Below, in pieces: positions 10,495 to 42,778 of a stretch of DNA of 64,000 bases. Each line of letters starts with the position of its first letter. Position 1 is the first letter of the stretch. This DNA is from Odontesthes bonariensis (taxonomy: Eukaryota > Chordata > Actinopteri > Atheriniformes > Atherinopsidae), in assembly GCF_027942865.1 (NCBI RefSeq), contig NC_134509.1, positions 9,197,754 to 9,261,753 on the forward strand. The letters run 5' to 3'. The position numbers and the translations under genes were made by a program. A model generated the notes under the pieces. It was given only the letters and a program-made list of their open reading frames with translations. It was not told where the DNA came from and made no database searches.

Positions 10495-12588
10495 AAATCT
10501 ATACAACAACTGAACGTACTTTACAATCTTCATGACCTTCAACAGTAAAGAGACAAAACATTGAACCACCTCTTGGTTACACAATGCGAGTTGTATAGAA
10601 AAAGGAACACAGGAATCCTTCTGCTTTGGCAACCAAAGCCCAGCTTTTAAAGCAACAGGGCTTAAGGCAGTGACTTTTAGAATCAATTTGCGCCTTTGCG
10701 ACATTATCAAAAAAATCTGGCATATTCATACAGGGGGCAGTACAGTCAGTGCATTTTTCTCACAGAGACTCGCATGAAAAGCTTTGAAGACAACATCGTT
10801 ACGACTCTTTACGGGCTTCTCTCTTTGAATCATGGCGACCATCTTGGAGGGTGAAGGCTGGCTGTGAGTCAGGTTAGACATTTAATCATCAGTGGGTATT
10901 TTAAACTCTGCAGCCCAACTGTAACAACTTCCCCGCCGATCACATGTCACGGACAGCAGGTTAGATCACGTTAACGAGGCCATTTTTCTTCTGAAATAAA
11001 GTGTCGAGAGTGTAGATTAACGTCTCAAATATAGGTGATGTGTGTACTATACAGGCTAACAGTGTAATGACTCAACATTAAGGTGCCGACAGGATTGAAA
11101 GCAGTGCCCGAGGTCACGATACATCAAGAATACACAATACAAAAAGGCAAACGTGTTACTTTTCATTTAGGCTCACTAAAACAGAACTCTACAACACCGC
11201 AGGAACAATGGTCTCAGTTAACAAACTCTTGACCAGCGAAGCTGCTCTCACAGGATATACAACCGAAAGGCAGGTGGATGTACAATTACTGATATAAAGG
11301 TGTTTCATAGGAGAGGCATATCTAATTTGCTCGAGTCCTATGGTGAAACGTAGTTATCTAACTTACAGTGAGTGTCAGCACATACCAAATTACACACGGG
11401 CGATAAGAGACACTTAAATACATTTTCTAAAAGCCAAACAAAGAGAGAGAGAGAGACAAGCCCTGTAAAAATATTTTGTTTTCGAATGATCGGCGTGTGA
11501 AACGTTCCCTCTCCTCTGCGGACATGATTGGCTGCCCGCCGAAGGAGGAAAAATAAATGCTAAACTCTTGGCTTTTAGACCCAGATTAATGAGGGAGATC
11601 ATAGCAACGTGTTCACATAGTTCTAGATTCCAGTAAACATATTAGTTCTACAAAAGACTGATTTGTCGAAGTGCTTTCGTGTCAGACAGTGTGAACCAGA
11701 GCAAACATGGAAAAAGCACTCGCAGCACAGTAGCAAACTTATAGAAATGTTTAGTACTTCACGTGCTGTTCTCAGTCAGCTTCAATATTTACATTTCTCA
11801 TTTTTTTTCCCAAATACATGCACGATGGACTCCTGTCCAACAGTTCTTTCAGGAGGCAAACTATTACCAAAGAAGCCTGGGTGGCGTAAACTTTTTTTTT
11901 TTCCCTTTTTGGCCACAGCTGAACTCGTTTTGGCGTTTTTCAGTCAGCGACTCGCTCAACGCCACATCTTTTACGGTCATAAACCACATCAAACCACATC
12001 ATGACACCAAATGAGGTTTATTTACAGTGGATTTCCCTGTCAAACTCCCATTTCAGTGTTAAAACGTCACTGTTTCTCAGTATCGTACATTTTTTCAAAA
12101 ATAGAGGCACGGTTGGGAGGAAAGACAGTTTTTTTTTTTTTTACTTCCCTAAACAATGCATCTTCACTCTAAGGTCAACAGGTGAAGCGTAAACCGAGGA
12201 GAGGATATTAAGAATTATTCAAAGTCTCCAAAGACGTATATGTGACAAAGTACTGGTGCCAAACCTTTCAAAGCGAGAAAAAGTTATTAATGCAGTCATG
12301 TGAAGTAAGGCCCCATCAATACAACGAGATTCATTTTGCCTGCTACGAGAAATATTTAACATTAACCGGGCTGAGCGACACTATCGATGATCGTTGGACC
12401 AAAAGGCAACTGCAGAGTTTTATAATCTCACGTCGTCCTGACCTGATTTAAGGATTGAGTACGCATGAAAAAAAAGTGGAGTATCTATACATAGAAGTGT
12501 TATTTACCTAATTTCCTATTTAAAAAAAAAAAAAAAAGCTTCAAATAGAGTTCACAACATTTTAACTGCATTACAATGACAAAGTTAA

Positions 12589-13088
12589 AGGGATAGTTTG
12601 CCTCTTTTGACATGAAGCTGTATGACATCCCATATTAGCAATATAATTTATGAACATTTTCTTACCCCCTGCTGTGTCCTGTGAGCCGAGTTCCAGCCTT
12701 GTTTTGGCGTTGACAAAAGTAGTCCGGCTAGTTGGCTGGGGCTACAAAAATAAAGCGTCTTGCTTCTCAAAACAATATGCGTTCAAAAGAGTGATACATT
12801 TGCATCACAAAATCGTTCATCCAGAAAAAGTCAGACCTCACAATCGCTTGGCACTATTTTCTCTCCCTTCGTATCACTACGGGCTGTGTAAACTGTGCAG
12901 ACCGAAGTGCAGGCCGAGCAGTCCCCTGCTTCCGAACAGGAAACAATGTAACAGGTGCAGCTGTCGTCAGGTGGCTGCATGCATTGATATGAAGGGAGGC
13001 AAAAAATAGCAGCAGGGGGTACGTCAAATTTAATAAATGATATTGCTAAATGATATTGCTAATATGTCAAAAGAGGCGAACTATCCCT
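12589..13088. mobile_element. TTAA-flanked MITE, family C, copy 1 (short right arm)
   Basis: Begins AGGGATAGTTTGCCTCTTTT and ends with the inverse (AAAGAGGCGAACTATCCCT), directly flanked by TTAA at 12585-12588 and 13089-13092. The left two-thirds match copies C2 and C3, including the CCGGCTAGTTGGCTGGGGC and GCATCACAAAATCGTT segments. The right arm is truncated and carries a repeated AATGATATTGCTA, so unlike C2 this copy is not a near-perfect foldback. No coding capacity. Confidence 0.85.
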
Positions 13089-13857
13089 TTAAACAAACCA
13101 AACGCAAAACCCACCCGACTCTGTCGTCTCCTGTTCGTTAAACGGTCAGACGGCTACAGATTTCCCAGCATTACGCAGGCTCGCCCAACACCACCGACTC
13201 TGGCTCCATACAGCTTTTTTTTTTTTTTTTGCACAATAACCACGGGTTCTCAAGTATTTACATACATACAGTTCTCCACAGTCTACATGAAGGCCCATAA
13301 ACAGAACAAGGCACAGTCAGTGTGAACAGCTGGGAGAGCCCGATGGGACGCTGCTACAGATTGTGCAGGTGTCGAATGCAAATTCTTCAGTAACAACCTC
13401 GTCAAAGTTGCTTCCAAGAATAACTACAAACGATTCATTTCGACAGCTCACGATTTTTTGTTTTTTTTTGGAAAACACAATACAGTCAACAATTTTAAAA
13501 GCTGACCTGACTTACACGATGTAATGACAGACCTTCATAGAGCATACACGACAGTGGCTAAAATACAGTCGAGTGAATCAAAAGCAATCCATGTTCCATT
13601 TTTGCTCCTCCTCTGTCGTTATCATTTGTTCCTACAAAATAAAAGGGTTCACAATAACAGAGGATCTTGACAGTAAAGGCTCGTCCAGAACAGCATCTAA
13701 GATTACGCCACCGTCCCTTTTCTTTGGTCTGTTTGGACAGAGCAGATAATGAGATCAAGTAGTTCTTTCAGAGCTCTACAAAAAAGAAAAAAAAAAGTTT
13801 CCGCTTTGGGGACTAAATGTGTTGAAGTTGGCACGACGCACTCTGTTCACTTTGACC

Positions 13858-16273
13858 CTACAGCAATGCGTTGGACATGTTGCTGTTCTGCCAGCGCAGA
13901 CATGTTGTCTTGGAATGCTTGTACAGGTGTGACGACTGGCTGAAGCGTTTCCCACACTTCAGACAGGCGTAAGGCTTCTCTCCTGTGTGCACGCGGATGT
14001 GTTTCTTGCAGTCGGTCAAGGTGAGGAAGGTTTTGCAGCATATCTTGCAAGCGTATTTTCGTGCCCCCTCAACCACCAGGACGTTGTGCTCTGAGAGAGC
14101 CTTCTTGCACTTGGACAGAACATCTGCCGAAGCCCTGGTAAGCTGAGGCGGGAGGGAGGTGGGCCTGCCACTGTTAATGTCATATCCTCCGCTCTCGTTG
14201 AGAAGCAGGGGATTGGCCAGACTTGAGGAAGAGGAGGCAGCATCTTGAAGAACTACTCCTACTCCTTCACCTGCCATGCCAGCGGCAATTTTCGGAGCGA
14301 TTCGTCTGTAGCTTGGATAACCCGCAGCGGTTGTAGTCGCTCCTCCCGGCCCTCTTGAGGGGCGCCCCAGTGAGTGAAGCCCGAGACTGGATCGCTGGAA
14401 GTCCAAACCGAATGGATCTACTCCTCCTCGCCCTCCACTCGCACTTCCACCACTTCCTCTGGGGTTTCCTAGACCATCATGCAGGGGGCGGAGGAACAGA
14501 GAATCAGCCTGCAGGTTATCTCCAAAGCTGTTTCGACACTCACCGCTGAGACCACCTGACTGCAGAAGGGACGAAGAAGCGGAGCTAGACGGTCCAGCAG
14601 CGTTCTGTCTCAGGAGAAAATTATGTGCTTCGGCATCTCCGGTTGTCGTGTTGGGAAGGTCATCCTCTCCAGCAACCAACCCCGACCCACCACTCCCAAA
14701 ATCCTTCGGGCTGAGGAAGCTGGAAATGTTGAAACCAGATTTACCACTAAGTCCGCTATTGCAGCCGAAGCCTCCTGCGACTCCAGCGCCGCCTCCCATG
14801 CTGCTCTTGAGGAGGAGCTGCGAGCTGGACTGGAGCAGGGGGTCGGAGCTGGGCTGGGGCTCGGAGGTGAAGCTGCGGTCGCTGCTCTCTGAGCTCAGCT
14901 CCACCTTCTCCTCCTCTTCCTGACACCCAGGCTCAGCCGGGTAGCTCCCCTCTGCCTGTGACATCACGTCGCTGTTTTCATCTGCTGCCTCGGGCGAACT
15001 GAGCGGCTCTCGTTTAACCATCACCTATGTTGAAAAAAAAAAAAAGGCCAAGAGAGATTTAACAATGATCAGAACTTAATTTGAAAACTTGAAATGTTTC
15101 TCTGATAAAATTCAATAAAAAATAACAAGAAAGTCACATTGTGATCACCAGAATACCAACATGTCGTGCCGAGAGTTTTTACCTTCTGCTCTTCCTCTTC
15201 TTCCTCTTTCCCTGATTTGACCCCTGCTCTGTTGCCCTGGTGATCCTGGTCACTGATGTCCTCTTCTTTGCTCACACCCCCCTGCATCCTCTCCCCTTCA
15301 CAGTGTCCGCTGTCTGACTGACTTGGCATTTGAGGGTCATCTTGAGACACTGAGACTAACCCGGTGATTGCAGGACCCAACTTGGATTCATCCCCCATCT
15401 TGTGGGAGTCGGGTGAGAGAAGTGCGCCGTCCTCTCGCTCCGCACTCACCCCGTCTTCTCCTAACAAGCCCAGGTTAGGAGCAGAGGGGCGCTGCCTCTG
15501 TCTGGGCCTCTCCTCTGAAAGTCCAAGAGCAAGAGAGGGCTTACGTTTGTGGAAGCGCCGGACCGGGAAGGAGGCCCTCTGCTCGACCCCTCTGCCACCC
15601 ACCCCATCCTCCTCCATCCCACCCAAAGCAGAGCTCACCAAGCTGAGCCCCAGCTGCTGCAGCAGGAAGGAGCGCTGCAACTTCGACGTGGCAGCGCTGG
15701 CAGCGAGATTAGCACTCGCCCCTAAAGTCGGATTCCCTGCTAAATCTGCCACTTGCTGCTGCCTGTGCCTCTGCTGCTCCTGCTGGGGGTGGTGACGAGG
15801 GGGTCTGTCGGACGAGGGGGACATAGGCAGCGTGCGCGTGGTCAGGTAGTGCTTGCAGGCCTTGACAACATTGTTGAGGTGCAGGTGCGACGCAGCAAGG
15901 AGGATATCCATGACATTGCTCTCCCCCAGCATTAGTGTTGACGTGTACATCATGTCAACCAGAGCAGCAAAAGCTTCAGCCGTCACCACCTGCAAGCACA
16001 AAAAGTTTAAGTATCATGTGATCAGTACACAGGAGCGACGGAGTCCCTGTGAAAAGTCCAAACCTCGCTGTCCAGCTGGATCATGTTCATGCTGGCGTCT
16101 CCCTCTGCGACAGTGAACAGTGCTCTGAAATGGGTGCTGCAGGCCGCAAGCACTGAGCGGTGGGCCTTGAAATGCCGGCTGCCCACCACGATGACACAGT
16201 CGCACAGCTGGCCGTGAACGCGCTGATAGTTGAGCTGCTGGAAGATCTGTTCAAAGTGGCCCGGGAAATCCAT
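13858..16273 (-). CDS. zbtb5: ZBTB5, BTB/POZ zinc-finger transcription factor
   Basis: Nuclear transcriptional repressor of the ZBTB family; mammalian ZBTB5 is reported to repress p21/CDKN1A. Coding exons in order: 16064-16273 (ATG at 16271-16273, right after an acceptor), 15183-15989, 13858-15024, giving about 727 residues against 677 in human. The first 120 residues are a BTB/POZ dimerisation domain (starts MDFPGHFEQIFQQLNYQRVH; also CDCVIVVG, FKAHRSVLAACS, MYTSTLMLGESNVMDILLAA). The long middle part is low-complexity, rich in Ser, Gly, Gln and Glu, and contains VKREPLSSPEA, a likely sumoylation consensus conserved with human (VKSEPLSSPE). Two zinc fingers lie at the C-terminus: CKICCKTF..HIRVH and CLKCGKRF..HSKTTC, the second ending in Cys. 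The linker HTGEKPYAC is intact. Glycine- and serine-rich insertions explain the extra length. Confidence 0.96.
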
Positions 16274-21300: not shown

Positions 21301-23781
21301 TGAGCAGAGATTGAATGTTGTGTTCACAAACAGTACCGACTGTTACTGCTGAATATTCGACCAGTCAGAAAGGTTCAGTTCTGGTTTTAGGTGAGCACTA
21401 CCTGGGAAAATTTTTTGGGGAAGGAATTTTTTTCCTGTAACTCCAGCTGTATTCCGGACTACATTGCCCAGAATTTAACGGTCTGGAGCTGTTTTTCCAG
21501 CAGCTGAAATGTTATTTTAACCCTGGGCCTGTTGCATTCCCACTGAGCTCCTAAGGTTCAGGGTAGGTTAGGCAATGTGAATCTTCTGAAGCCCGTCGCT
21601 CCACCCCGTCTGTCTTTGTTGGAGTGTCGGCGCTGCCGTGCTGAGCCTGTGGTGAAACTTGGAAGTCGGCTTTGGCTGTATTAAAGGGATAGTTCGCCTC
21701 TTTTGACATGAAGCTGTATGACATCCCATATTAGCAATATCATTTATGAACATTGACTTACCCCCTGCTGCGTCCTGTGAGCCGAATTCCAGCTGAGTTT
21801 TGGGGTCCACGAAGCTAGTCCGGCTAGTTGGCTGGGGGCACAAAAATAAAGCGTTTTGCTTCTCAAAAAAATATCCGTTCAAAAGAGTAATACATTTGCA
21901 TCACAAAATCGTTGTCCAGGAAAAAGTCAGAACTCACTTCGCTTGGCGCTATTTTTGCCTCCCTTGATATCAATGCATCCAATGTAAACTGTGCAGACCG
22001 AAGAGCAGACCGAGCAGTCCCCTGCTTCCGAGCAGTAAACACCGTAACAGGTGCAGCTATCGCTAGGTGGCTAGGGAGTGCCCGGTCTGTTCTTCGGTCT
22101 GCACAGTTTACATTGGACGCATTGATATCAAGGGAGGCAAAAATAGCGCCAAGCGAAGTGAGTTCTGACTTTTTCCTGGACAACGATTTTGTGATGCAAA
22201 TGTATTACTCTTTTGAACGGATATTTTTTTGAGAAGCAAAACGCTTTATTTTTGTGCCCCCAGCCAACTAGCCGGACTAGCTTCGTGGACCCCAAAACTC
22301 AGCTGGAATTCGGCTCACAGGACGCAGCAGGGGGTAAGTCAATGTTCATAAATGATATTGCTAATATGGGATGTCATACACTTCATGTCAAAAGAGGCAA
22401 ACTATCCCTTTAACTCCAAATCTGTCCATATTGCACATTTCTATGACGTTTTAACCATTTTTATTGGTGTCTAAGAACATGACTGCTGTTGAACAAAAGT
22501 AAACAGAAGTTAACATTTTGTTTGTCCGATTTCACTGCTTTCTTCTCACTTGCCTGCAGGTCCTGGTCTGTAGTGTTTTCTACTCCGCAGTAGAAACACC
22601 AGGAAGTGCTCATCAGCTACTTATTTGTCACTATCCATCTAGTCATTCAGTCTTCACACCTCCCTTTTAGTTGCCGGTATGGGTCGATTGAAACCAACGT
22701 TGCCCTCTTCAAACAGCCAGTAAACAGAGGCTCTGTGTTATAATTGCAACACTATTTTTTTTCTTCTTCTTGCAAATGCAAATTCACTTTTGTTATTTCC
22801 CGCCTGTTTTTTCCCCCCTGTTTTTTCCCCCCAGATCTGTTCTAAACGCATTCAAAACCAAATTATGGCACATTTTGGGCATTTCTGCACTCATCATATT
22901 GAAGCATATAGAAAATGGAAGCAGTGTGTTTACAATGAAATGAAGCAGCACGTTGAGCTTGAAACTTTAATGTGAAAAACCTGTCATAGCTTTCTGTCTG
23001 CACGCCGCATGTAAACGGACCTAAAAACCTGCTTGTAAACTTGAGCTAATAATGGCTCATGATTGTGTGCAGTCGGGAAGGAAGAGGGCTGCCCGCGAAT
23101 CATTCAGACCAAACTGCTCAGAACATTCACCGTTGAGACGTTCAACAATGGCAGGTATGATGATCGGGACGGCCTCCTGCTTCAACTTTCTAAACCAGAA
23201 CTTTTTCAGTTTCAGACAAATAAACTTCATCTTCATTCTTTTTAGGGTCCAGAACATCGTGTCGACCTCAATGCGTTCCAAATTAGCTGCATACAGTCTG
23301 GCTCTGCTGCTGCATATGGGTTACATGACGGCTGACCTCTCATTACTGCACCGCGACCTTGGAATTACTGAGACTAAGTAAGAATAAGATCTTTGTTACA
23401 CGCAGTGTTAACACAAACTTTCTCTGGTTAAATAGCATCAAGCCAGTAGTGTCCTCTCTGTCCCATTTGCTCAGGTTGATATTATTCTGGCGTCGGTCAG
23501 TCAAGTTTCTACTTGTAGACACATAGCTGCGATGCCTCACACTGTACTGAACTGTCAGCACGAGGTGTGTCCCAGGAACTCTGAACATAGAACTGATGCA
23601 TATTTTTACCTACAGTGTGATCGAGATCGCAAAGTCAATGGGGCTGACTTTAATCAAACCAGCCCGGGGCAAAGGGGAGGAGGCTGGACTGCACAATGAC
23701 CACAAACAGGCCTCTCTTGTTCTGCCTCTGATCAAATACGATCAGTTCATGGAGAGACGAAAGCGGAGGAAAATGCACTGA
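18381..23781 (+). CDS. polr1e: POLR1E, RNA polymerase I subunit (PAF53/RPA49)
   Basis: Subunit of the RNA polymerase I PAF53-PAF49 heterodimer, acting in nucleolar rRNA transcription (TFIIF-like and TFIIE-like role, family knowledge). Coding exons: 18381-18444, 19407-19510, 19601-19677, 19759-19844, 19980-20035, 20130-20274, 20468-20578, 20701-20797, 20892-21022, 23073-23154, 23246-23377, 23616-23781; phases are continuous and give about 416 residues, near human length. Conserved stretches: FSNGCVQNADKLDFTIFKN, ESDRLSYVGQNFG, QKRALSSRRLNQVG, the tandem winged-helix C-terminal half, and the basic tail MERRRKRRKMH-like end. A hAT-type element sits in intron 1 and foldback MITE C2 in intron 9. 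AATAAA at 23878-23883 is a likely polyadenylation signal. Confidence 0.95.
18619..19323. mobile_element. Non-autonomous hAT-type transposon in POLR1E intron 1
   Basis: Starts CAGGGCCGGCCCAAGCC and ends GGCTTATGCCTTGGGCCGGC-TCTG, an imperfect inverted repeat. It is flanked by a perfect 8-bp direct repeat CATATCCC at 18611-18618 and 19324-19331. An 8-bp duplication and CAG...CTG termini are hallmarks of the hAT superfamily. At 705 bases, with no transposase-like reading, it is a non-autonomous derivative. Confidence 0.88.
21685..22409. mobile_element. TTAA-flanked foldback MITE, family C, copy 2
   Basis: A 725-base near-perfect palindrome in POLR1E intron 9: arms of about 340 bases (21685-22023 and 22071-22409) around a loop of about 45 bases. 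It starts AGGGATAGTTCGCCTCTTTT, ends with the inverse, and is flanked by TTAA at 21681-21684 and 22410-22413. The two strands read nearly identical translations, which confirms the inverted repeat. The open frames have no recognisable protein content. Confidence 0.9.
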
Positions 23782-24888: not shown

Positions 24889-27800
24889 TCACAGGATCGA
24901 GCAGAACATGCTGCCACTGTGGCAGCCGCTTTCCACCGTAGCGCCGACCCTGGCAGTCATGGAGATTCCAAGTCGGGAGGGATACTGGGATGAGGACAGG
25001 CCGGCATGAGAGCTCGCCAGCGGGCGAGGAGGAGGGTTATCCAAAACCCAGGGTGGAGCAGATGTACAGCTGGAAAATGTCAAAGAGTTTACCAAATATA
25101 TTCAGACTCCTTTGAAATACATTGTGGCAAATGTATGTGTACTTAGCACATCTCACGCCAATATTCAGTCTATTTTTTTGTGAGATGTCACACTTTATAT
25201 GCTGCTATGTCCCACTCTGTTCATCAGCTAGTTTCCAACCATCTGGTATGGTGATTTTTCTGTTAAAACTGAAGCCCAAAACATCACCATGAAAGCATTA
25301 ATAGGGATCATGAACTATAACAAGTATGAAAAAAAAAAAGGAAACCCACTCAAACACACCTAAAAGTTCAGTTTAAAAGTAGCTGCGTACCTTATTTCAA
25401 ACCCTGTGGTGAAACACTCGCTGAAAATATGGGGCCAGTTTAGGAAACACTTTGAACTCCATGATTTTTCCCTCTTAAAGCTGCAGTCTGCAGGATTTGT
25501 TGTTGTCATACGTAAAGTCCTAATTTTTGGCATTTTAAGAGTTTACATGATGTATCAGAACGCTTGAAGTTGAAAACGGTGACCTCCGTAGTCGCAAAAT
25601 GCAAGAAATGCTTATTTTTTAACCGAAAAATAAAAAGTTATTCAACTTCCTGTCCCGCCCCATCAAAACACATGAGAACTCGTGCACGTAGACGTGCACG
25701 CCAGATGCGCTTACACGACTCCTCATTCATCAACTCACCTGTCATTTGCGATCATGGAAGACACAGTAAGTAGACAAGCCCGTAATGAAGTTCAATAGTC
25801 TAGATAAATAAGCGTGGGGACGAGCCTACCTTGTATCGCGCGTGCACAATCGGTGATTGACAGGCAGCAGAGCCCAGCTCATAACCTGATTGGTTACCTC
25901 TTACCGGTCCGGTCTGCAATTTTGTAAACAAACCTGCTGGCTTTGGAGGGACCTAGCGGGACATATAGGGGACCTAGAGAACTCGTTTTTTTTTGTATTG
26001 GGGTATTTAATGTACTACTTTCAGAATCCCCGGACAGTTCCAGGCATTATGCTTGAAAAAGAGTTGCAGACTGCCGCTTTAAGTCCAATTGCACTTAACC
26101 ATTTTTTTAAACCATCTGTTCAGGATGGGGTGTTCCTAGAGTGGCACCGGAGGGGGCTTATTCATTTTAAGGACCTTTTCATAGAGAAGAATTTGGCATC
26201 CTTTGAGGAACTTAGCAACAAATATGGTTTACCTAAATCCCATTGTTTTAGATATTTGCAAGCCAGAAACTTTATTCGGTCTCACTTTTCAGGCTCAGTT
26301 TCCCTACCAGAGTGTACACTGTTGGAAACCATCCTATTATTGAACCTGACTCGTAAAGGGATGGTTTCGTGGCTTTATAATAAAATGTTGACCATGAAAG
26401 AGACCTCCTCACCTAAACTTAAAACTTCATGGGAAGAAGACCTGAATATGACTATACTGGATGAGACATGGGCCTCTATACTTAAACTGGTGAATACATC
26501 ATCTCTGTGTGCGCGCCATTGTCTCATTCAGTTTAAAATAGTACATAGAGCCCATCTCTCCAAAAGCAAACTATCTCGTTTCTATCCAGAAATCACCCCA
26601 TACTGCGACAAATGCAAAACTGCCGTAGCCACATTGGGTCATATGTACTGGTTCTGCCCCGCTCTTGGTCAGTTCTGGACAGATGTTTTCCGTACGATGT
26701 CCGGGTTGGCCGGAGTTGCAGTAACACCTGGCCCTCTTTTGGCTCTTTTTGGCTTCAGTGATGAGGGGTTGCCTTTACCAGCCTCTAAAAAACAGGCACT
26801 AGCATTTTGCTCATTGTTAGCGAGGCGTACAGTTCTAAACCAGGTGGAAGGGTGCTGCTCTTCCAACTCACAAGCAGTGGTTATGTGACCTCATGTCGTG
26901 TTTGAAATTGGAAAGAATTAGATGCTCTCTTCAACACTCAACTGGTAACTCATTCCAAAATTTACAATAATCCTCTAGATTAATTTATTTTATTAAAATG
27001 TGCTCTGTTTCTGTCAGGGATAGGAATGTAGTCCTGGGTGGGCTAAATGGGATTACTTTGTAGGGATTCATTTTTTGTATATTATTTTATGTCTGTGCCA
27101 GATAAACACTTTGTATTCACAAACTGTATGCATAAAAGGAAAAAAAACTTAATAAAAAGACTGATTAAAAAAAAGTAGCTGCGTATCCCTTTAACTTCGT
27201 TAGCAGTGCCTGGAGGGATCTTCTTCAAATACAGCACTAAAGTTCGCTTTGCCTGATGGATGAACTTTTAGATTCAAGCTTTGATTGAAAGTTGAAAGTT
27301 GTAAAAAGCGACTTTTCTCCACAGAAGAATTCATACACTAATGATAAAAAATCTGACAGAAATACCTAAAAGGAGAATCTGACCATAATTTCACAACATC
27401 ACTGTGGAAATGAAGGGCAGATTCTGATCATTTATCTTTTCAGACTGAGTCCTAAGTTAGTGACCCTACTTTTAGGTGTCCATCTTGAGACTACGGAGAT
27501 TGCATGGATCTTAAATGTTAAAATGGTGGATGTGAAGAGAATCTGCAGGTCTTTTGGCATCTAAAAATAAGGCAGAAAAGTGTGTTCAGAGGCCACTGAT
27601 GCCTCTGAACGCTGTTATTTTCAGTTGCTTAGTTACCTGTTATTATGCCTTAGAATACTGTTGTTGCACAGCACGCAGCTCTCATTGCCAGGGTCCATGT
27701 GTAGCAGTGTTTTTTTGTTCTCAGGGTGGCCCTGGAACAAGATGTTGTCATGCACAACACCTTTTACTTGCCCCAGCAGAGCAATACCACAGCCCTGTGC

Positions 27801-30800
27801 TGGTTGCACACGGTTGCGCACTATCTAAAGACAAAAAAGACAGAAGAAAAAAATAAATAAATCACTAAACGTATTAAAGTAATGTGTACATTGTGTTTGT
27901 TGCATCTGAAATAAGTCTAGTCCTATGTTAGAGTCTTGAGTCATCCCTCTTTTCTTTATATTTTCCTTCCAAGGAGCCAGACTTTCTGGTAATCTTTTTA
28001 AGCTGCTGGGAGCAATAGTTCTGAGAACGGAACAAAAGGCAGCCGACATCCAAAGAAGAGCTTTGGGATGTCCTTCAAGAAGCCTGGAGAACTGTTCCCA
28101 AAGACTACTTAAAGAAATGACAGGAAAGCTTGTCCAAGAGTGTTCAGGCCACGTTGAAGAATAAAAGAAGTCAAACTAAATATTGGCTTTCATGCTCGTT
28201 CAAATTGTACGCGCTCAATTTTCATGTTTGCCCATGTTTAAAAAACGTATTGCACTTATTTATGCTGGCAATATACTGTATAAAGAAACAAGGGAAGGCT
28301 CAGGACTTTTGCACAGTACTCAAGTCTACCGGTGTATCACTCAATCTCACCTTGATATCAGTGCTTGCAGACACCTGGATCCCACATCCACTGTTACCAA
28401 CCACATCATTCTCCACTATCTGCCCATTACCACTAAGCCGGACTCCATGGCCACTGTTTTCATAGATGCCATTACCACGTAGCTCAACTCGGCAGTCCTT
28501 CTCTACTGTAATACCACCTCGACTATTTTTAAGAATGCAGTTTGTAACAAGTCGGGTCAGCTGACTGCTCTGCAGCACGGCGATGCCAGGGCCACGGTTG
28601 CTGTTTATAAGGTTCGCGAATACATTCAGGGCTTCGCTGCTCTTCACATATAGGCCAACTGCTGCAAAAAAGAGGGAGAGACCGTTGGAGACAGAGCGCC
28701 ACCGTTTGCATTTGGTTCAACAGATCGGTTCAGTACCTCCGTTGTAGCTCACGCAGTTGCCTTCCACCAGGGCCACGCTGATGGAGCGGCGAGCAGAGTG
28801 CCGCTCATCCTCGCTGTCCAGATCGCTCTCCCAAGCAAACAGTTCGCCCTCCTCATTAAAGTTCTCCTGCCCTTCTCTTCCTTCTCCTTCCACTCCCCTC
28901 CTTTCTCCAATGCCTGCATCTCCACCAATCCCTTCCTGTCCAGGCCAACTCCCCTCCCTGGCCTCAATGTTCTCCGGGTCCTTTCGGCAGAACACTGCCA
29001 GCCCATACATGCAGTTATGGAGGATGTAGTTTCCTAAGAGCTGGGGGAGGCTGGATGACATAACCCACACGCCGCAGCCTTTATTACCTAAAGAAATCAG
29101 ACGAGGAGGAAATCAAACACTTGGAGAAAAGCGTTTAAAGATGAGCTGTTATGTACAAACAATCAGTGCAGCCACTATCAGGCTGAAATGACATACAATA
29201 GACATGGTTTCCCTCAATAAGTCCACGTCCTCTTTCTCCCACCACCACACCGTCTGAGTAGCCATAGCAGATGTAATTGTTCCTCAAGATGGGGTCACCT
29301 CCTCTGCGGATGTCCACGCCCCCCCACTGGTTCTCCCTGATCACATTCTCTGGAATTAAAATGCCACACATGATGAATCCAGTCATCCCGATGGGTGATG
29401 TTGACAATTAGACGGGGCAGAGCCAATGACACACCTGTTATCATCCCTCTGCCGTTCTCATTGATAGCAATCCCTGCTGCCTGGCCTTGAAAGATGTGAT
29501 TACCACTAAGAAAGAAATGAGAGAAGTGGATTAAATGCTTAGGTTCAGACTTTGCACAGACACTGAATAGAGCAGAGCCAACAAAAATCCTATTAGGAAT
29601 GCATGTGTTTCGAAGTCAAAATATCTGAAAGAAGGTACGCAGTTTCTCTGCTAAACAATACTGCCTTTGATTTTATTACTGAGAACCTTTGTCTTCTGTC
29701 CCTACTGAGAACACCCATCGAGAAACTATGAACACTGAACAATATCCAAATAATGGCAACCGCAGGGTCAACACAATCCCAGGAAAGTTGGATGTTTGTG
29801 GAGTCCAACCTACCTCACCACAGGATTCCCGCTGAAGAGAATATACACACCGGCCTCCTTGTTGTTGTAGATCAGGTTGCTCCGAATAGAACCTTTCCCG
29901 TTGCCAAGAACAACAACCCCAGAACGAAAACCACTATGAATTTTGTTGCACTGCGGAATGAAAGATGGTATACAAACAGAGTAGTGCATACGACACTAAG
30001 ACAGGTTTACAGCAGAGTCAACATGCCACGAGGTTACGGCTAAGAGGGTGATACGCTTTCTCTTAAAGGGATAGTTCGCCTCTTTTGACATGAAGCTGTA
30101 TGACATCCCAATCTAGCAATATCGTTTATGAACATTTTCTTACCCCCCACTGCGTGCTGTGAGCCGAGTTCCAGCCTCGTTTTTGACGTTGACGAAGGTA
30201 GTCCGGCTAGTTGGCTGGGGCCACAAAAATAAAGCGTTTTGCCTCTCAAAACAATATACGTTCAAAAGAGTAATACATTTGCATCACAAAATCGTTCTCC
30301 AGGAAAAAGTCAGACCTCACATCGCTTGGCGCTATTTTCTCTCTACCTTCGTATCACTGCATGCTGTGCAGACCGAGCAGTCCCCTGCTGCCGAGCAGTA
30401 AACACCATAACAGGTGCAGCTGTCGGCAGGCGGCAGCACGCAGTGATACGAAGGGAGAGAAAATACACCAAGCGATTGTGAGGTCTGACTTTTTCCTGGA
30501 GAACGATTTGTGATGCAAATGTATTACTCTTTTGAACGCATATTGTTTTGAGAAGCAAGACGCTTTATTTTTGTGGCCCCAGCCAACTAGCCGGACTACC
30601 TTCGTCAACGTCAAAAACGAGGCTGGAACTCGGCTCACAGCACGCAGTGGGGGGTAAGAAAATGTTCATAAACGATATTGCTAATATGGGATGTCATACA
30701 GCTTCATGTCAAAAGTGGCAAACTATCCCTTTAACGACTAGTCATGAGATGCTTTTGAAAAATCAGAGACAAGCTGTATTAGAATTATTGAGAAATGCCT

Positions 30801-32790
30801 CCAACTTTAAAAACTTGGGACTTTTAAAGATGGTAATTTACCAGAATGGTGGGGTTAGCCCCTTTTCGGATGTCCAGCCCCGCCTCCCCATTCGAGTGGA
30901 TGTTATTTTCCGCAATGAGGCCCCGAGCAGACAGGCGTAGAAACACACCTGACGCACGGCACTCACACACCTCGTTTCTCAGCATCACAATCTAAAGGAG
31001 GGGAGAGAGAAAGAGGGAGCTCAAGTAACAGCTTGAACTGGAATCTGCTGCTAAATTACTAATGATCAAAGCCACTTCCTTAACTTGATATGTTACTCAA
31101 ATGGTGCTCTGCGCATTAGAGTCCCTAAACCTGAGAAATCTTAATGTGTAAGGATGATAATTCAGATTTATAAGAGACAAAGGTATAAGGATTTAATTTA
31201 CCGTGGAGTTCTGGATGCAGCGGACAGCATAGTTCAGCCCACGGAATATATTGTCCTCCAACCGAGCTTGTCCATAATTAGACAAGTGTACACCACCCTT
31301 CCCGTCTCTGAAGAGGCAGCGTCTGAGGATGCAGCCAAGGGTCGATGTCCCCAGTATCAGAGCCCCAGGGTCCCTTTCAAATTCTTGCTGAAGGGTGAGG
31401 GGTTCAGGGGTGGCAGATGGGGGGTCAGAGGAAGACGCAAGGGGCAGAGAGCCATCTGCCCGGAGCTTGAGTAAATGGGATAGGCTGTGATGGTCACAGG
31501 GGATTTTGTAATCCAGTGTAAATTGTTTCTTAGTATTGTCATTTGTCTCGCCATCTCGGTTTTCCTCCTCTCTCTCACTGTGCTCACCATCACTCCAGCC
31601 ATCTTCAATAAATGTGCCCTGACAACCAGAATCTCCACCTGTCCTTCTCTTCCAGTCCTCCATGCTCACATGCTCCTTTTTAACATTACCATGGGGAGGG
31701 TCAGGCTCACCAGTGGAGCTGGCCCGAGGGCCTTTGGGGGAGCTGCAAGACCCAGATGGGAACGTCCTGGCTAAGGCAGCCAAGTGTTTACAAGCCCAGT
31801 TCCTTTCTGACACCGGAGGACCTTCCACAGTCACCGAAGCTGTGTCACTTCCAGAGAAATCACAGCTGTCCAATAAACTGAGCACAACGCCCAGCAAGTG
31901 GGCAGAGCTGCCTTGTGAGAAGGAGCAAAATCGAGCCTGGCAAGTTCCAGGACCACGGATTTGCAGCTGGGCCCCCTCAAAGTTGCAGTTATCTAGCTGG
32001 ATGTGACCCCATGATGTCTAGAGGAGAGCAGGGACAGAAAAGTGATAGCAGTCAGAGAGATTTAGCTACAAAGAATAAAATAAACTGGAATTAAACCTGA
32101 TTCGGTCATTTGTGGATTCAAGCGAGAATGGACCTTTTTTCAATCTTAAACCTCTAATGAGACATAGCGCTCTATGAAACCACAAGGACAAGCTCCAACT
32201 TCACCTTGTAGACAACAGTGGAGAACCAGGGGGGCATGAAAACCAGGTTACACAACCTGGCAGTAGGGCACTGCTGCTCCATACACACCAGGAGGGCCAC
32301 CTCGCCCAGTCGGCCCAAACCAACCAGCTCCACGGGCACTTTCAGCGTCACCTCAGCCTGCTCCTCATACACCCCTGGATGGAGAACCACACGGTCATAT
32401 GGCCCCACCACCCCCAGAGCCCCTCGCAAGGTCTCAAACTCACAACCGGGCCCCACGTGCCAAACCCTGCGGTCCTTTCTCCGACGGAAGAAGAGGAGGC
32501 AGGCAGAGGACTGCAGCTCTGGTCCATTTCGAGTCCAGGTGCGGGTGGCAAGGGCGTGCTGCTTCAGTGCCTCTCTCCAGGAGGGGGGCTCAAGATGGGG
32601 CTGACTGGGCCAGTTGGGATGCCGACACTCGGGGCAACCAAGGCAGAGCTGCCTCCAGCGGGTGTTATCCAGAGAGAGAATGAGCTCCCGCCAGGCACGG
32701 CACACCTGGCAGCAGCGGCCCAGGTCTGGGAGAGGAAGATAGGCCAAGATAACCCTCCACAGCTCCATGGGGAGGCTACCCACCTCCATG
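24889..32790 (-). CDS. fbxo10: FBXO10, SCF ubiquitin-ligase F-box adaptor with beta-helix repeats
   Basis: Substrate receptor of an SKP1-CUL1-F-box ligase; human FBXO10 targets BCL2 (family knowledge). Coding exons in order: 32215-32790 (ATG 32788-32790), 31202-32017, 30842-30991, 29814-29950, 29435-29505, 29197-29349, 28737-29087, 28351-28661, 27637-27824, 24889-25069; about 977 residues (human 956). F-box in the first 50 residues (LPMELWRVILAYLPLPDLGR). It is followed by CASH-type right-handed beta-helix repeats with many G-N-x-I/V steps (for example GLIEGN, GGVDIRRGG, ELRGNGIYENSGHG). The second exon carries a fish-variable Ser/Glu-rich loop. The exon at 28737-29087 holds an acidic, Gly/Glu-rich insertion. 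The last four residues are CSIL, a CaaX box like human CTIL. A noncoding first exon ends at a donor at 33347-33352. The last intron is expanded by a LINE. Confidence 0.95.
25390..27170 (+). mobile_element. 5'-truncated L1/Tx1-type LINE in the last FBXO10 intron, split by a MITE
   Basis: A 15-base direct repeat (AAAAGTAGCTGCGTA) at 25375-25389 and 27171-27185 brackets the insertion, with an A-rich tail just before the second copy. Inside is an open frame of about 260 codons (26083-26888) resembling the C-terminal part of L1-type ORF2: it contains LIQFKIVHRAHLSKSKL and a cysteine/histidine motif CDKCKTAVATLGHMYWFCP. Upstream of MITE E the frame continues back to about 25400. Only the 3' end of the element was inserted. 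The final frame is open, so the insertion is probably fairly young. Confidence 0.85.
25479..26078. mobile_element. TTAA-flanked MITE, family E, nested inside the LINE
   Basis: Begins AGCTGCAGTCTGCAGGATTT and ends with an imperfect inverse (GAGTTGCAGACTGCCGCT). It is flanked by TTAA at 25475-25478 and 26079-26082. Removing the element with one TTAA joins ...FSLL to SPIALNHF in one frame with no stop, so the exact excision boundary is verified by the host reading frame. About 600 bases, no coding capacity seen. Confidence 0.9.
28020..28320 (+). mobile_element. Tc1/mariner transposase 3' fragment, decayed, FBXO10 intron 8
   Basis: Reads CAGCCGACATCCAAAGAAGA and GAAGCCTGGAGAACTGTTCC, matching on the opposite strand the relic at 39245-39700. 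It ends with GGACTTTTGCACAGTACT, a phrase typical of Tc1-like element ends in fish. Frame is broken; only the C-terminal coding end remains. Confidence 0.7.
30067..30730. mobile_element. TTAA-flanked foldback MITE, family C, copy 3
   Basis: 664 bases in the FBXO10 intron between 29950 and 30842. Arms of about 300 bases (30067-30366 and 30433-30730) are inverse copies; a loop of about 65 bases lies between. It starts AGGGATAGTTCGCCTCTTTT, ends CAAACTATCCCT, and is flanked by TTAA at 30063-30066 and 30731-30734. Sequence follows C1 in some central words and C2 in architecture. Confidence 0.9.
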
Positions 32791-32924
32791 GCAGCAGAGA
32801 CACCGGCTGAGGAGCACCGTGACGAAGGGGAGTACCTGGAAACAACATGTAAGACGTGCACACGCACGTGCAGTTACAGCAACAGGAAACCACGCAACCG
32901 TGACACAACAATAACATACATACA

Positions 32925-33450: not shown

Positions 33451-34261
33451 GTTCTCAGTAGTGCATGATGACTGCAGATGTGCCATGGAAATGGAGCTCA
33501 GGCTCAGGCTACCAGTTTACGGCAGGAGACAAAAAAAAAAAAAAAAGATCTCCATCTTCCGCTTCCAAAAAGTGGGCGTTGACGTTAACCCCCCCCCCCC
33601 CCCCCCCTCCCCTAAAGACGCACACACATAGACACGCGCGCGCACCTTGGGATGTTTGGAGGAGAGCATATGCGGTCAGGACCGTTGCAGATGAAGATGG
33701 CCAGGCAAGCCTTCAGTAGCAACCAGACAAACTTTGGTCACAGTGCCTTTCACCAGTGTCTAATTTTGAAAGGAATTTCCTCAGGATTTTAATGCGCCAC
33801 ACCAAATAAGACCCGCAACTTGCTGATGAATACTGCCTCCATGGTCGTTATTGGCAGTGCCAAGTCAGTTATCAGGATTGGGTAGCTGTCGGGATCAAGA
33901 TGGCATAATCAGATCTCAAAAATAAGTGATTTCATCGAGTCTAGATTAGATGATAAAACTGTGTAATTATACTATCGTTACATTTCCAAGGATACTTGGT
34001 TAATGTAGTTATACATCTAAAATATGCCAACAAAAACCTTACAGGAACCATATGCATAGAGTTACCGTATATGGCATGTTTGTTTCCATTGACAATTTTA
34101 CTGGACCCGTTCCAACTGCTACATTTTTTTCTACGTCTACAGGCTTCCAGTTCTGTTAACGGTTTACCAACTAATTCCTGAATCTGTTTTTAATTTTGCT
34201 CCATTTTCGTTCTACTGCCTTGACCTTGGTAGGATTTTTATTTTATTTTATCATAACTTAA

Positions 34262-34682
34262 AGCAATACTATGTAACATTTCTACCTTAAAATAACAGCT
34301 TGAAAAAAATTGTGCGGCTAGAATGAGTTTTAATATTACGATTGGCCTGTCTCCTATGCCCTTCGGGGGTCTGAGTTGGAAAAACTGCGCAATGTAACTT
34401 TGCTGGACCGGCCCGGGAGCTAAGCGGAAGTACTTCGACTTGCTTTCTGGCACACCTACTGCAAAAACAAATAGACCCCTCTCACGCTCCCAGGTACATT
34501 TGATTACTCTTACCTTCTCGGTCGACATAGCTTGCACCTTCTGACTCCTCGCCGGTTCGTAAACAAACGTGAAACGTGAAAGCAAAAGGGTGTTGTATTT
34601 ACGACAGTGTAACCGTACATTACCTCCAAGCCTGTAGGGGGAGCTCCATAGTGGGCTTTTTGAGAAGTTACATTGTATCGCT
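34262..34682. mobile_element. TTAA-flanked MITE, family B, copy 1
   Basis: Begins AGCAATACTATGTAACATTT and ends AAGTTACATTGTATCGCT, flanked by TTAA at 34258-34261 and 34683-34686. It is about 421 bases. The interior (CCCTTCGGGGGTCTGAGTTG; GCAAGCTATGTCGACCGAGA on the other strand) matches B2 in reverse orientation. Confidence 0.88.
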
Positions 34683-34760
34683 TTAATTTGAATTTTTGTT
34701 CTGTTGTCTTCTGAGAGGCCCCAATGCAGGGGACACTCGCAACTTGTTAACAATAAATTA

Positions 34761-34790
34761 GTTTGCAGCAGTTTGCAGCAGTTTGCAGCA
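34761..34790. repeat. Three perfect tandem copies of a 10-mer
   Basis: GTTTGCAGCA occurs three times head to tail with no mismatch. No function visible. Confidence 0.95.
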
Positions 34791-35063
34791 CATGTGGGCT
34801 CTGCATATCTCACTGGCCAAGAGTACCGTTTTTCTCTGACTGGGCTGTGGTATGAAAGGAAGAGCTTAAATGTGTTTTCCAAACAAAATTTTATTACATA
34901 GAGAATTTACTCTTGGTGATTTACATCAATAAGTAAACTGATTGCATCATGCAACGGTTATGTAATTATTGTGGATAAAAAGTTCTCTAAATCTGCTGGA
35001 CCTGCTCGACTACAGACCAGAGAATGATAAAAATGAGTTGAACATATATTTAGGCTATTTAGC

Positions 35064-36140
35064 AGTGTTGTGCGTGAACGAGTTCAAAAGAACGCGTTCA
35101 TTGAACACGCTCATTTTTTCGCGAACGTTGAACTGAACGCAACACGTTTTTTAATAAAGAACTTGAACGTGAATGAGTTCACATTATGTGTCATGAACGG
35201 CAGACATCACTGTAAATGAACGTTGGAATTTGTTTTCCATTGAAAACTGAGTGACATCTGTTTTCTCTTTTGAAAAGCAACGAGAGAAATTCCTCCCTCC
35301 TGTATTCTATGGAAGCAAATCGTGATCAAAATTCAAATTCAAATGCATTATCAGAAATGCTTTTTCATTTTAAGAATGTGGCTGCATTATTTGACTCATA
35401 AATGAAATTACTAATCAATCATCCTATTTGCATTTCAATTTTCTTCTTCAAGACTGCTCATTCTTTCACTTAATTCAAATGAAAAGGACAAAGACATTTG
35501 AAATTTAATTTTCAAAATATGCCTCAGCAAATAGATACCAAAATTCAATTTGAAATGTAAAAGTTGAAAATTCAAATGCATTATCAGAAATGCTTTTTCA
35601 TTTTAAGAATGTGGCTGCATTATTTGACTCATAAATAAAATGACTAATCAATCATCCTATTGCATTTCAATTTTCTTCTTCAAGACTGCACATTCTATGC
35701 CATAATCAAAAAGAAAACAAAGCGGACATTGCTTTTTCGTTTTCGTGGTCTGCATGCAAAATACTGCCCACAATTCGATAACGAAAAAGCAATCTGAGCG
35801 GCGCAGGAGAGTGACGTCACGCCTGCTGACCGTGCTACCCATCATGTAGGCTACGGTAGGGGGCGGTGTGCATATTTGCTGTACAGTTAGCTGCCCAGGT
35901 GGAGTCAAACAATATATCCGATTCTGATGCCCGTGACCGGGTTGAACGGGTCACAGAGAGCTTGGCTGCATACTCTGCCGTCACAAATTCAGAGGTTAGT
36001 GCAGCAAGGGCTTGCGCGCCGAGGCCGCGGCCACGACCGGCCATGACTTTCTGGCCGCGGCCATTACTGAGGGAGCAGCCATTAATGAGGCTGAGACAGA
36101 CGTTGCGAACAGGAGTCGGGGGATTACCTTTCACAGGTAG
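35064..36140 (+). mobile_element. Possible hAT-like element, left end and first exon
   Basis: Starts at CAGTGTTGTGCGTGAACGAG, followed by a dense set of GAACG/CGTTC words, wording I associate with left ends of fish hAT elements. After an AT-rich stretch with an internal duplication comes a GC-rich open block (35866-36136) ending in TTTCACAG followed by GTAGGATT, which looks like an exon with a donor. No transposase domain is recognised, the right end is not found, and element G may lie inside it. Confidence 0.4.
35333..35690. repeat. Tandem duplication of a 125-base AT-rich segment, period 233
   Basis: Segment 35333-35457 is repeated at 35566-35690 with few differences (both contain GCATTATCAGAAATGCTTTT and GACTCATAAAT). 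The spacer between them is AT-rich. Confidence 0.85.
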
Positions 36141-38818: not shown

Positions 38819-41800
38819 ACTGAAACCAGTCTTCCTCTTAAGAAGCAGGGAACAGACAATGGTCGATATCCTGCCTACTGCTACAACTGCTCCCAGAAAG
38901 GACACTTTGGCCATGTGAGTACCTCACTCTTGCTCATATGATTACAGCAGCATGTTTAAAGAAGTTAAAGCAGGGGTAACAAAAGCCTAGGAAAAGTCTG
39001 TACTGTTTTAAAGACCTAAAGAAAACAAAAAACACTGAATATATGACAATAATCAGGTTAACTGTCAACGTGATATATTTAAAATGAATCGTCCATGAGT
39101 CTTTCAAGAGGGTCAATACTGTGGAAAAGTCATCAGACGCCCCGAATTTCTTTATATATTTCCAGAAAAACGGGAAATAGAAACACAATTGGAAATAAAT
39201 GGAAATACAGAATAAAAGTCAAAAACGTAGTTTTCTAACAAGCTTATAAAGTCAACATTTGGTCTGAGCACCTCTATTCTTCAACACAGTCTGAACCCTC
39301 TTAGACCAGCTTTCTGTCCTTTCTTTAAGTAGTCTTCAGGAATAGTTCTCCAGGCTTCTTGAAGGACATCCCAAAGCTCTTTGGATGTCGGCTGCCTTTT
39401 GTTCCGTTCTCTGCCAAGATGATCCCACACTGCTTCACTAATGTTGAGGTCCGGTCTCTGGGGAGGATTCATCACCCAATAAGTCCTGTAGCCACTGATT
39501 TTCAGTCCAGTTCTTGTGTCATTTAGCATACGTCAGCCGTTTCTTAAGAGTTGTCTCTTGACAGCCGTCCCTCTATGGAGCCCATTTCTGATGAGGCTTC
39601 CGCCACCAGTAGATAGAACAACTGAAGTTCCAGATACAACTCTCAGGTCTTTGCTGGATTATTTTCCTATTTCTTAAGAACATCGCTTTCAGGCCCCATT
39701 TATCTGCTGTAGATCTTTTTTTTTTTTTTTTTTAAGGCTTATCGTCCAGTTTCCTCAAATTATTTTAAGGACACACTCTACTTATTTCCTCTACTTCATC
39801 TGAAAAAAAGAAGAAGCAAAAAGTCAAATTTTCTAAACATTCTGTGATATGTTATACAAAGCCATATTAAAAAACATTTAGTCATATCCGTGTTATGTTT
39901 ATTATATTACAAAAAAAGCTCTGAATGGTCATTTTGGTGATTCCACAATTTTTGCCAGGGGTTTTAGACCCAACACTGGTTCGTCCCTTGAGTTAGGTAC
40001 CTTTTTATAGCTTGAATGATTCAAAGATTAGTGTTAAGTGACTTAACAAGAAAAACAAAACAAGACTTGACTGAAAATGAGTGACAAAGCAGCCAATGGC
40101 TAAAGAAAAGTTTGTAAAAAACTTCCAAAAATCCTGGAGAATGGAGTCCACCACTCTGTAAAAAAACATAGTTCAACAATATGATGAAAATCTATGCGAT
40201 TCAAAATTGCTAAGAAGATGAGTAATGCCTTCGTATCTTAAGCAGCTGAAAACAAGAATGCAAGATTGGGAAAATATATCATATTCAAAGCTCCAAAACA
40301 TTTACAGAGTAACAGCACTAGTGGAGTCGATGCAACACGGTCGTAAACCTTACAAACTGTTCTTAAAGGTGACAGAAGAGTATTGCATGGGCTTAATGAG
40401 ATATCAGGAGTGAGCAAAGCTTCCTCAGATTTTGGATCCTTGGGGTCTAGTTGTTGGTCAGATTCTATTCTTTGGCTGAAATTGTCATTGTGTAATTTTA
40501 TTGGTTATTTCTGTTTCTGCCTTCTATATCCATTTTGCTCAGGAGTGTACGCGGCAGAAGATGTTCAAAGGGGTTTATCCCAGCATCCCATTCATCAGCT
40601 ACTACGACACTGTGGAGGACATTAACTGCCGGCAGCACAGGATAAAGCTGAAGGCGAAAAGTAAGTCACACGGACAAAAGGTTATTATGGGTTATGGTTA
40701 GTGTGTTTTTGCATATTATGGGGGAAAAAAAGAACACTTGAAATGAATTCCCCAATTTTTGTACCCATGCTAAATCATGATTTGCAGTAGATTCATATTT
40801 CACCAACAAGTTCTTTCTGGCTGGAAATGGCATAAAAGAGGCAGTCGACTGAAATGCATTGTGCTGAATGTGTTCATTTCAATTCCCACGGCTGGGGCAC
40901 GTTTTGATGAAAAATACTATGTCCTGATTCATATTTAATCTTGGTGAAAAATCGATGGGAAAGTGTTCATTGTGATTTTTTTTTGACCACCGTTCTATTG
41001 GGATGATTCCCAGGTCTTCTAGATGTGGAGACCTCCACGCTATCACTCTGCTCTGGTTTATGATTTTTGGATGGTCCTTGGAACAGAGGATAAATGTACA
41101 CTATATTTTGGGGAAAAACATCAGTCTGCAAAAAAAAAAAAAAAAAAAAAGACTTTATCTCGGGCAGCATTATCTCTTACAACAAGCCAGCGATCAGAAA
41201 CATCCTGGTAAAAGCTGATGTTTATGTCAATTTCAGCCAGAATATTCACATTGGTCAAATGAAAATTCACTATCAATCAAAATTTGGGTTGTGTGTGAAC
41301 GATAATGTCTGTATTAGGTCAATGAAATAATCTAAAAGCCTAAAGGAAATGTGAAAGTTCTGTTTGTGCTTCAATACATGGTTTGAAGAAATTCATTTTT
41401 ATTAAAGGGTTAGTTCGCCATTTTGCACATTAAGCCCTGTTTTTAGGTAGTCTGGGGTGAATTATAGATGTTCTGATCACAATTTGGACATTTGGTGCTG
41501 AACGGAGCATTTAGGTATCCACTGCTGCAGCCCCCCCACCTTTGCATTGAGTCAATGACCACTCAAGCAAACAATCATAAAACGGCATTAAACTTTCGTT
41601 TGAAAAGACATGGAACTTACCGTGTGGTCAGTGGTGGACAGCGATAAATTGACCCAAAAATCGCAGCGAAATGTGCCTTCTAACAGTTGTTTTAGCATTT
41701 GGTGGACCTATTTTTCCGGACACCATTGAATAGCAGCAGCAGATACAAATCAATGAAGACGGACAATAATGGTAATATAACTTCTCTGGAAGCGTATTTC

Positions 41801-42778
41801 GCGGTGATTTTCGAGCCAACGTATCGCTGTCCACCACAGACCACACGGTGAGTTTCATGTCTCTGCAAACGAAAGTTTAATGCCGTTTTATGATTGTTTG
41901 CTTGAGTGGTCATTGACTCAATGCAAAGGTGGGGGGGCTGCCGCAGTGGATACCTAAATGCTCCGTTCAGCACCAAATGTCCAAATTGTGATCAGAACAT
42001 CTATAATTCACCCCAGACTACCTAAAAACAGGGCTTAATGTGCAAAATGGCGAACTAACACTTTAAGTAAATTACGAGCATAGTTTTTTGTGTTTTCATT
42101 TTCCATGAAAAATGTATTTTAGAAAACATAAACATTTGTCCTTAAATCCTTTTTTTCTTTTCCCTCTTAGCGTTGAGGAAAATGGGCTATTTAGCCGCTC
42201 CTTCTGAGACGCCTCTCCCCCCTGGGCCACCAAAAAAGAAACAAAGAGTCAGTCATCACAAAAACAATTACCAGCCCCACAACGCACCTCAACAGACCCC
42301 GAACAGCCACAAAGCCACTCCCAGCCATATCTTTTTTAATGACAAGTTCAGGGACTCCACGCCCAAAACAAAGAAATTGAAACAGCAGGAAGGTGTTGGC
42401 AGCGTCAAACCGTGGAAACCTAAAAGACCCGTTCCCACCTCAAGGGCGCCACTCCCACCGGCGAAGTTAGTTTTGGATGAAGCAGATGACTTTCCCAGAG
42501 GGGGAATGCCAGAAGAAAACACAAAGAAGAAGAAGAAGAAGAGGAATAAAATGAAGCACGTTCCTTTATCCCTGCCAGACGGTCAGAGAGACCGAAGACC
42601 AGAGAATCTATGCCGGACTGGGACTGGGACTGGGAGGAGGCAGGGGTCGGCATCAAAACATCAGCGGGTGGAGAAGAAGAGAAACAGGAGAAATCGCGCT
42701 GACAAAAATCTCGGAGCGCAGATGTACCCAGCAGATGAGAATCTGTTCATTATAAAACAACGGAAACGCAGGAGATAG
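38819..42778 (+). CDS. zcchc7: ZCCHC7, zinc-knuckle RNA-surveillance factor (5' exons not found)
   Basis: Vertebrate homologue of yeast Air1/Air2, the RNA-binding zinc-knuckle subunit of the nuclear TRAMP polyadenylation complex feeding the exosome (family knowledge). Exons: 38819-38914, 40543-40660, 42171-42778; phases match. The first two complete one CCHC knuckle, CYNCSQKGHFGHEC, followed by a conserved YYDTVEDI segment like human CYYDD. The last exon is Lys/Arg-rich and low-complexity (PKKKQR, TKKKKKKRN), and ends NLFIIKQRKRRR, matching the human end LFLIKQRKKK. The upstream knuckles and N-terminus are missing: no ATG-bearing exon was recognised between 33450 and 38818. AATAAA at 43747-43752 is a likely polyadenylation signal. 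Introns hold a Tc1 relic and foldback MITE D. Confidence 0.9.
39245..39700 (-). mobile_element. Tc1/mariner transposase relic in ZCCHC7 intron
   Basis: Minus-strand translation contains WVMNPPQRPDLNISEAVWDH and ELWDVLQEAWRTIPEDYLKK, a degraded form of the WPxQSPDLNPIExxW segment that follows the last catalytic residues of Tc1-type transposases. Frames are interrupted upstream and intact terminal repeats were not found, so it is inactive. Confidence 0.85.
41406..42062. mobile_element. TTAA-flanked foldback MITE, family D
   Basis: 657 bases just before the last ZCCHC7 exon. Arms of about 245 bases (41406-41650 and 41815-42062) are inverse copies. It starts AGGGTTAGTTCGCCATTTTG and ends with GCGAACTAACACT, flanked by TTAA at 41402-41405 and 42063-42066. 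The terminal bases resemble family C but the interior is unrelated. Its right TTAA is about 100 bases from a splice acceptor. Confidence 0.9.

Follow-up and report, generated by a model that had tools for sequence, protein, structure and literature searches.

L1-type LINEs integrate where their endonuclease nicks a TTTT/AA-type consensus, and among transposons that duplicate TTAA, Sola3 forms a further superfamily beside Kolobok and piggyBac. Kolobok elements are described as making TTAA duplications and as carrying 5'-RR...YY-3' ends, unlike piggyBac (PMC9587614). In one study's table of ten full-length Kolobok copies from Xenopus, every copy has AG ends; the same source gives a left end beginning AGC for XKol A1 (AGCGATTC) and TTAA with AGGRR ends for the T2 MITEs (PMC6004289). 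piggyBac, too, is described as duplicating TTAA, with the conserved 5' motifs CACTA, CCCTC, CCCTT and CCCAT (PMC10813416). A length limit of under 800 bp is given for MITEs (PMC5199201), and the passages that mention Sola3 name it without its ends (PMC5199201; PMC5753468).

We analyzed a stretch of 64,000 nucleotides (the window; G000:C4:9197754-9261753 in a host genome of 945 Mb) in which a LINE is split by a shorter element, here called E. The original prediction that a 15-bp target duplication brackets a 5'-truncated L1-type LINE is borne out by the sequence. The window contains the duplicated sequence, AAAAGTAGCTGCGTA, at exactly two places: on the plus strand at 25375..25389 and, as an exact repeat, at 27171..27185. 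Between the two lie a 5' piece of the LINE (25390..25478, plus strand, TTAA included), which belongs to the ORF2 C-terminal region of the L1 clade, and a 3' piece (26079..27170, plus strand) that runs from TTAA to the A-rich tail with a frame open to 26888. Without E the copy measures 1,177 bp, and only 89 bases of it stand to the left of E. Its L1 traits are a target duplication at a TTTT/AA-type nick (the bottom strand at the 5' edge reads TTTT/AAAC), 5' truncation and a 3' A-rich tail, which is short (ATTAAAA ahead of the duplication). The rejoined frame of 297 aa matches human LINE-1 ORF2p (8sxt) over residues 1035-1178 (E 2.8e-5), the C-terminal homology by which the copy is placed in the L1 clade, while its zf-RVT match is weak (18.9 bits vs a cut-off of 27.5); the reverse transcriptase and endonuclease regions are missing from this 5'-truncated copy.

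The copy resembles human LINE-1 in its ORF2 C-terminal alignment, 5' truncation, long target duplication and A-rich tail, but represents a separate family that is young in the host genome, and the copy is split by E. Its 5' piece shares 97–100% identity with 10 other LINE copies (approximately query 15-104), and the whole copy differs from these 10 relatives by 2.6–4.0%. Two other copies, L122 and L123, are 0.2% apart across approximately 950 bases, and the LINE family (L122-L124) is very young in this genome. A single indel near 26838 breaks the frame of the window's copy and is absent from all nine relatives that cover the position. Pattern searches for LINE relatives yielded 3 matches in viral contigs and 22 in bacterial and archaeal genomes, none of which was confirmed.

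E proper (25479-26078, plus strand) consists of 600 bp; as predicted, the TTAA at 25475 and the TTAA at 26079 enclose exactly this length, and with TTAA at both sides the element spans 25475..26082 (plus strand). It is recognized as a MITE by its terminal inverted repeats (TIRs), by exact ends that number more than 1,000 across the genome and by the flanks of 30 copies. The TIRs are 14 bp long and match at 13 of 14 positions: the left one (25479..25492, plus strand) reads AGCTGCAGTCTGCA and the right one (26065..26078) reads AGCGGCAGTCTGCA on the minus strand, where 27 of the 30 copies have AGCTGCAGTCTGCA. The sole inverted repeat of at least 12 bp reported in 25460-26110 is a 19-bp pair (25474-25492 and 26065-26083) with 95% complementarity. 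An 18-base TIR pattern allowing up to three mismatches occurs in the window only at the two ends of E, with 0.17 matches expected by chance and two matches in one of 100 shuffles. When all TTAA pairs 60–3,000 bp apart were compared (n = 6,386), 13 pairs, E included (13/14), had at least 12 of 14 inner bases matching and the remainder at most 10 of 14, a control that is not clean, as an A-rich pair and pairs within other elements are among the 13, and as AATT, ATAT and TATA also reach 14/14 because they fall inside long palindromic arms. The TIR pattern also gave at least 120 matches in viral contigs, which were taken as chance given its 14 specified bases.

Within the window, blastn detected no second copy of E and Rfam returned no matches. 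All six reading frames of E are interrupted by stops, and E itself shows no transposase; in Kolobok, the autonomous parent would encode one with DDE, THAP and H2CH motifs. As single-stranded DNA, E gave a better fold than each of 20 shuffles (z −3.0), an excess that we set aside because inverted repeats alone would produce such folding. The observed/expected CpG ratio is 0.91 in E, 0.37 in the LINE and 0.56 in the window; CpG content was dropped as a clock, since its use would require the starting content of each family. In the CpG-rich middle of E, inspection by eye found an ATG string, ATGGAAGACACA, followed directly by a splice-donor-like GTAAGT (together at 25754..25771, plus strand), and we speculate that it could be a relic first exon of the parent element with its splice donor.

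Deletion of E together with one TTAA joins ...HDFSLL|SPIALNHFF... in a single frame open to 26888, exactly as the original prediction held. However, an in-phase join arises by chance about one time in three, and TA and TTAA duplications give the identical empty site, so the frame cannot separate them and other copies were needed; the further claim that the frame alone defines the exact ends of the element fails for the same reason. Residues 1-75 of the LINE frame, which contain the join, are not recognizably similar to their human ORF2p counterpart (their score is reached by 776 of 2,000 shuffles), so that this comparison lends the join no support, and a phmmer search with residues 1-103 returned only an unrelated protein (E 1.5). 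The empty site was looked for in the host genome, where the best 40 of 2,148 candidates, for E and the LINE together, were scored. Thirteen LINE loci besides the window's were found among them, 10 of which span the insertion point. The 600 bases are missing from all 10; nine read through a single TTAA at this point, the site being mutated in the tenth (L134). This is the outcome that the original prediction had named as support for itself. The other three loci start downstream of the insertion point and include L125, a duplicate of the window's LINE.

This duplicate is part of an inverted, 99.9% identical copy of window 26268-29361 and 34368-35221 that lies approximately 209 kb away (G000:C4:9005900-9014847; L125 and L181). 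Interrupted by a 5,000-N gap, it stops within the LINE at a gap of 200 N that lies 185 bases from E; its appearance is that of an unresolved haplotype or an assembly duplication.

We compared copies of E across the genome, using its inner 541 bases as the query and scoring the best 40 of 1,795 first-look candidates; all 40 had 99–100% identity. Thirty copies with loci were examined, the window's included, in a sample biased to copies most like the window's. They are 598–601 bp long and each carries 1–7 mismatches to the consensus (mean 0.57%). An exact 32-base left end of E occurs 1,033 times genome-wide (reversed-pattern controls, 0), and a 34-base right end, which takes in TTAA and leaves one position free, is found 1,618 times, counts that are not comparable one-to-one because the two patterns are unequal in length. 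With a length below 800 bp, TIRs, a high copy number and no transposase, E has the hallmarks of a MITE, and the family is large and very young, with strict TTAA insertion.

The left end begins AGC in 29 of the 30 copies and CGC in one (L166, which begins CG), and on the opposite strand all 30 right ends start with AGC. AG...CT termini of the 5'-RR...YY-3' type are found in the window's E and in 29 of 30 copies, alongside a TTAA duplication such as both Kolobok and piggyBac make. E behaves as a cut-and-paste MITE of TTAA sites, and its ends fit Kolobok/T2-type TTAA transposons rather than piggyBac. Like the Kolobok/T2 MITEs of Xenopus, E combines TTAA insertion with a short AG-TIR, high copy number and non-coding sequence; the T2 ends are AGGRR as against AGCTGCAG in E, and the XKol A1 left end begins AGC like E but differs in its remainder. 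That E might instead be a piggyBac-type MITE is suggested by the TTAA duplication that the two have in common (PMC10813416), yet the cytosine-rich end motifs of piggyBac MITEs are absent from E, whose AGCTGCAGTCTGCA ends begin AGC rather than CACTA, CCCTC, CCCTT or CCCAT and conform to the Kolobok RR...YY pattern, and we consider the piggyBac assignment improbable. Sola3 stays among the candidate identities for E. Among the papers listed by a literature search with end-sequence strings of E, none looked related; Repbase and Dfam were outside its scope, and we do not claim E as undescribed.

Private substitutions in the LINE copy number 7 of 955 (0.73%), and the window's E differs from the E consensus at 5 of 600 positions (0.83%), so similar that divergence does not date the two insertions apart. 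The same similarity, together with the youth of both families, is what could be expected if E had already resided in the source LINE and both had been retrotransposed together, with no insertion of E at the present site. Against that scenario, the exact string across the LINE-to-E junction, a pattern able to match E in both orientations, has a single occurrence genome-wide, in the window (exact matches only; mutated copies would escape the count). Nor does any of the 29 other E copies examined lie inside the same LINE. These two observations make co-retrotransposition unlikely, and we give it very little credence. Most likely, as far as the sequences indicate, E entered the LINE copy after the LINE was in place. 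The relative age in the original prediction (LINE first, E later) is thus favored by the unique junction, while divergence contributes no order.

The identity of the target is established by the family rather than by the locus. TTAA stands at both sides of E in 30 of 30 copies and precedes 1,009 of the 1,033 exact left ends (97.7%), which together indicate that the target of E is TTAA. The flanks of the 30 copies comprise 29 distinct ones, one being common to L168 and L169, and the bases outside TTAA vary, with a pyrimidine before it in 25 and a purine after it in 21 of the 30. The earlier claim that TTAA is the target duplication therefore stands on these counts, the frame by itself being no proof. 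A TA duplication of Tc1/mariner type, with free flanking bases, ends reading AAGC... and TTAA as mere local context, would leave the identical empty site at one locus, but a free TA target, under which TTAA would be far rarer, is refuted by the left ends and by the 30 copies with their varied outer bases, and this reading is hardly credible.

We looked for an autonomous partner with the same ends on contig C1, which holds 52 exact left ends of E. Forty-one of these pair with an exact right end to form an element of 497–613 bp (608–610 bp with both TTAA in 32 of the 41), four pair at 1.4–9.7 kb, and seven are without a right end within 15 kb. The four long pairs were rejected as autonomous elements, being E copies that carry nested insertions (L183-L186), and no autonomous element with E ends was found among the C1 end pairs. 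L183 is an E copy missing approximately E bases 308-434 and interrupted by a gypsy-like retroelement, in which Pfam identified an integrase domain and in which gag, protease and reverse transcriptase frames were recognized by eye. The insert in L184 has a reverse transcriptase domain and a second frame without a Pfam match, and was taken for a putative non-LTR retrotransposon; L185 and L186 are E copies with inserts of no assigned type. A THAP search of the host genome, in which the best 150 of 1,545 candidates were scored and nine on C1 were compared with E ends, showed all nine to be more than 15 kb from any exact E end, with a minimum distance of 17.5 kb.

Other TTAA-flanked, AG-ended elements are present in the window, and these were chosen by requiring TTAA, so that they provide no independent test of the target. 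Four have AGGGATAGTT-like ends (12585-13092, 21681-22413, 30063-30734 and 41402-42066), two have AGGTGGGG (48412-48745 and 49148-49526) and two have AGCAATAC (34258-34686 and 48785-49151). Within the neighbor families a1-a3 and c1-c2, the copies are alike as far as the TTAA at either end, beyond which their flanks differ. The AGCAATAC element at 48785-49151 sits between the AG-ended elements at 48412-48745 and 49148-49526 and shares its right TTAA with the latter, as if one might have inserted into the TTAA duplication of the other. Elsewhere in the genome, three E copies (L155, L183 and L185) directly abut a TTAA that belongs to a further AG-ended sequence, which is AGTGATACTCCGGAG for L155 and L185 and AGCGATACTCCGGAG for L183. 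The first nine bases of AGTGATACTCCGGAG equal those given for the Xenopus XKol A1 right end (PMC6004289). The window also holds BTB + C2H2 zinc-finger, F-box and phosphoglucomutase-domain frames (13858-16013, 32172-32873 and 52223-52675), the C2H2 zinc-finger matches being below Pfam cut-offs. We take the BTB/zinc-finger frame to be ZBTB5, the F-box frame to be FBXO10 and the host to be a teleost.

The locus is thus very probably the product of an L1-clade LINE inserted by target-primed reverse transcription (TPRT) and then of the MITE E, inserted into its ORF2 part at TTAA. In the first step, for which the sequence gives evidence, the transcript of an L1-clade LINE was reverse-transcribed, target-primed, into a TTT/AAAAGTAGCTGCGTA site, giving a 1,177-bp 5'-truncated copy between 15-bp duplications. 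In the second, for which the genome-wide copies also speak, the non-autonomous 600-bp E later entered the ORF2 part of the LINE at TTAA, with a net gain of 600 bp and one TTAA. A Kolobok-type transposase that recognizes AGCTGCAGTCTGCA ends may have moved E in trans. Taken as a whole, the original observation is confirmed and its interpretation is supported by the comparative data, with corrections to the use of the frame as proof and to the superfamily.

E in the LINE is ordinary nested transposon biology and implies no new mechanism; the least ordinary aspect is the youth and abundance of E. The locus serves as a worked example in which the frame of a host element foretold the pre-insertion site and copies across the genome bore the prediction out, with the correction in logic that a frame by itself does not separate TA from TTAA. 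It also draws attention to a young family of TTAA MITEs, for which a search for the transposase could be made. We raise, tentatively, the possibility that E, whose exact ends exceed 1,000 in this one vertebrate genome, belongs to the Kolobok-type MITEs and is mobile at present, or was until very recently, still moved by an active transposase. If so, young LINE families would offer ready-made empty sites for timing the bursts of E.
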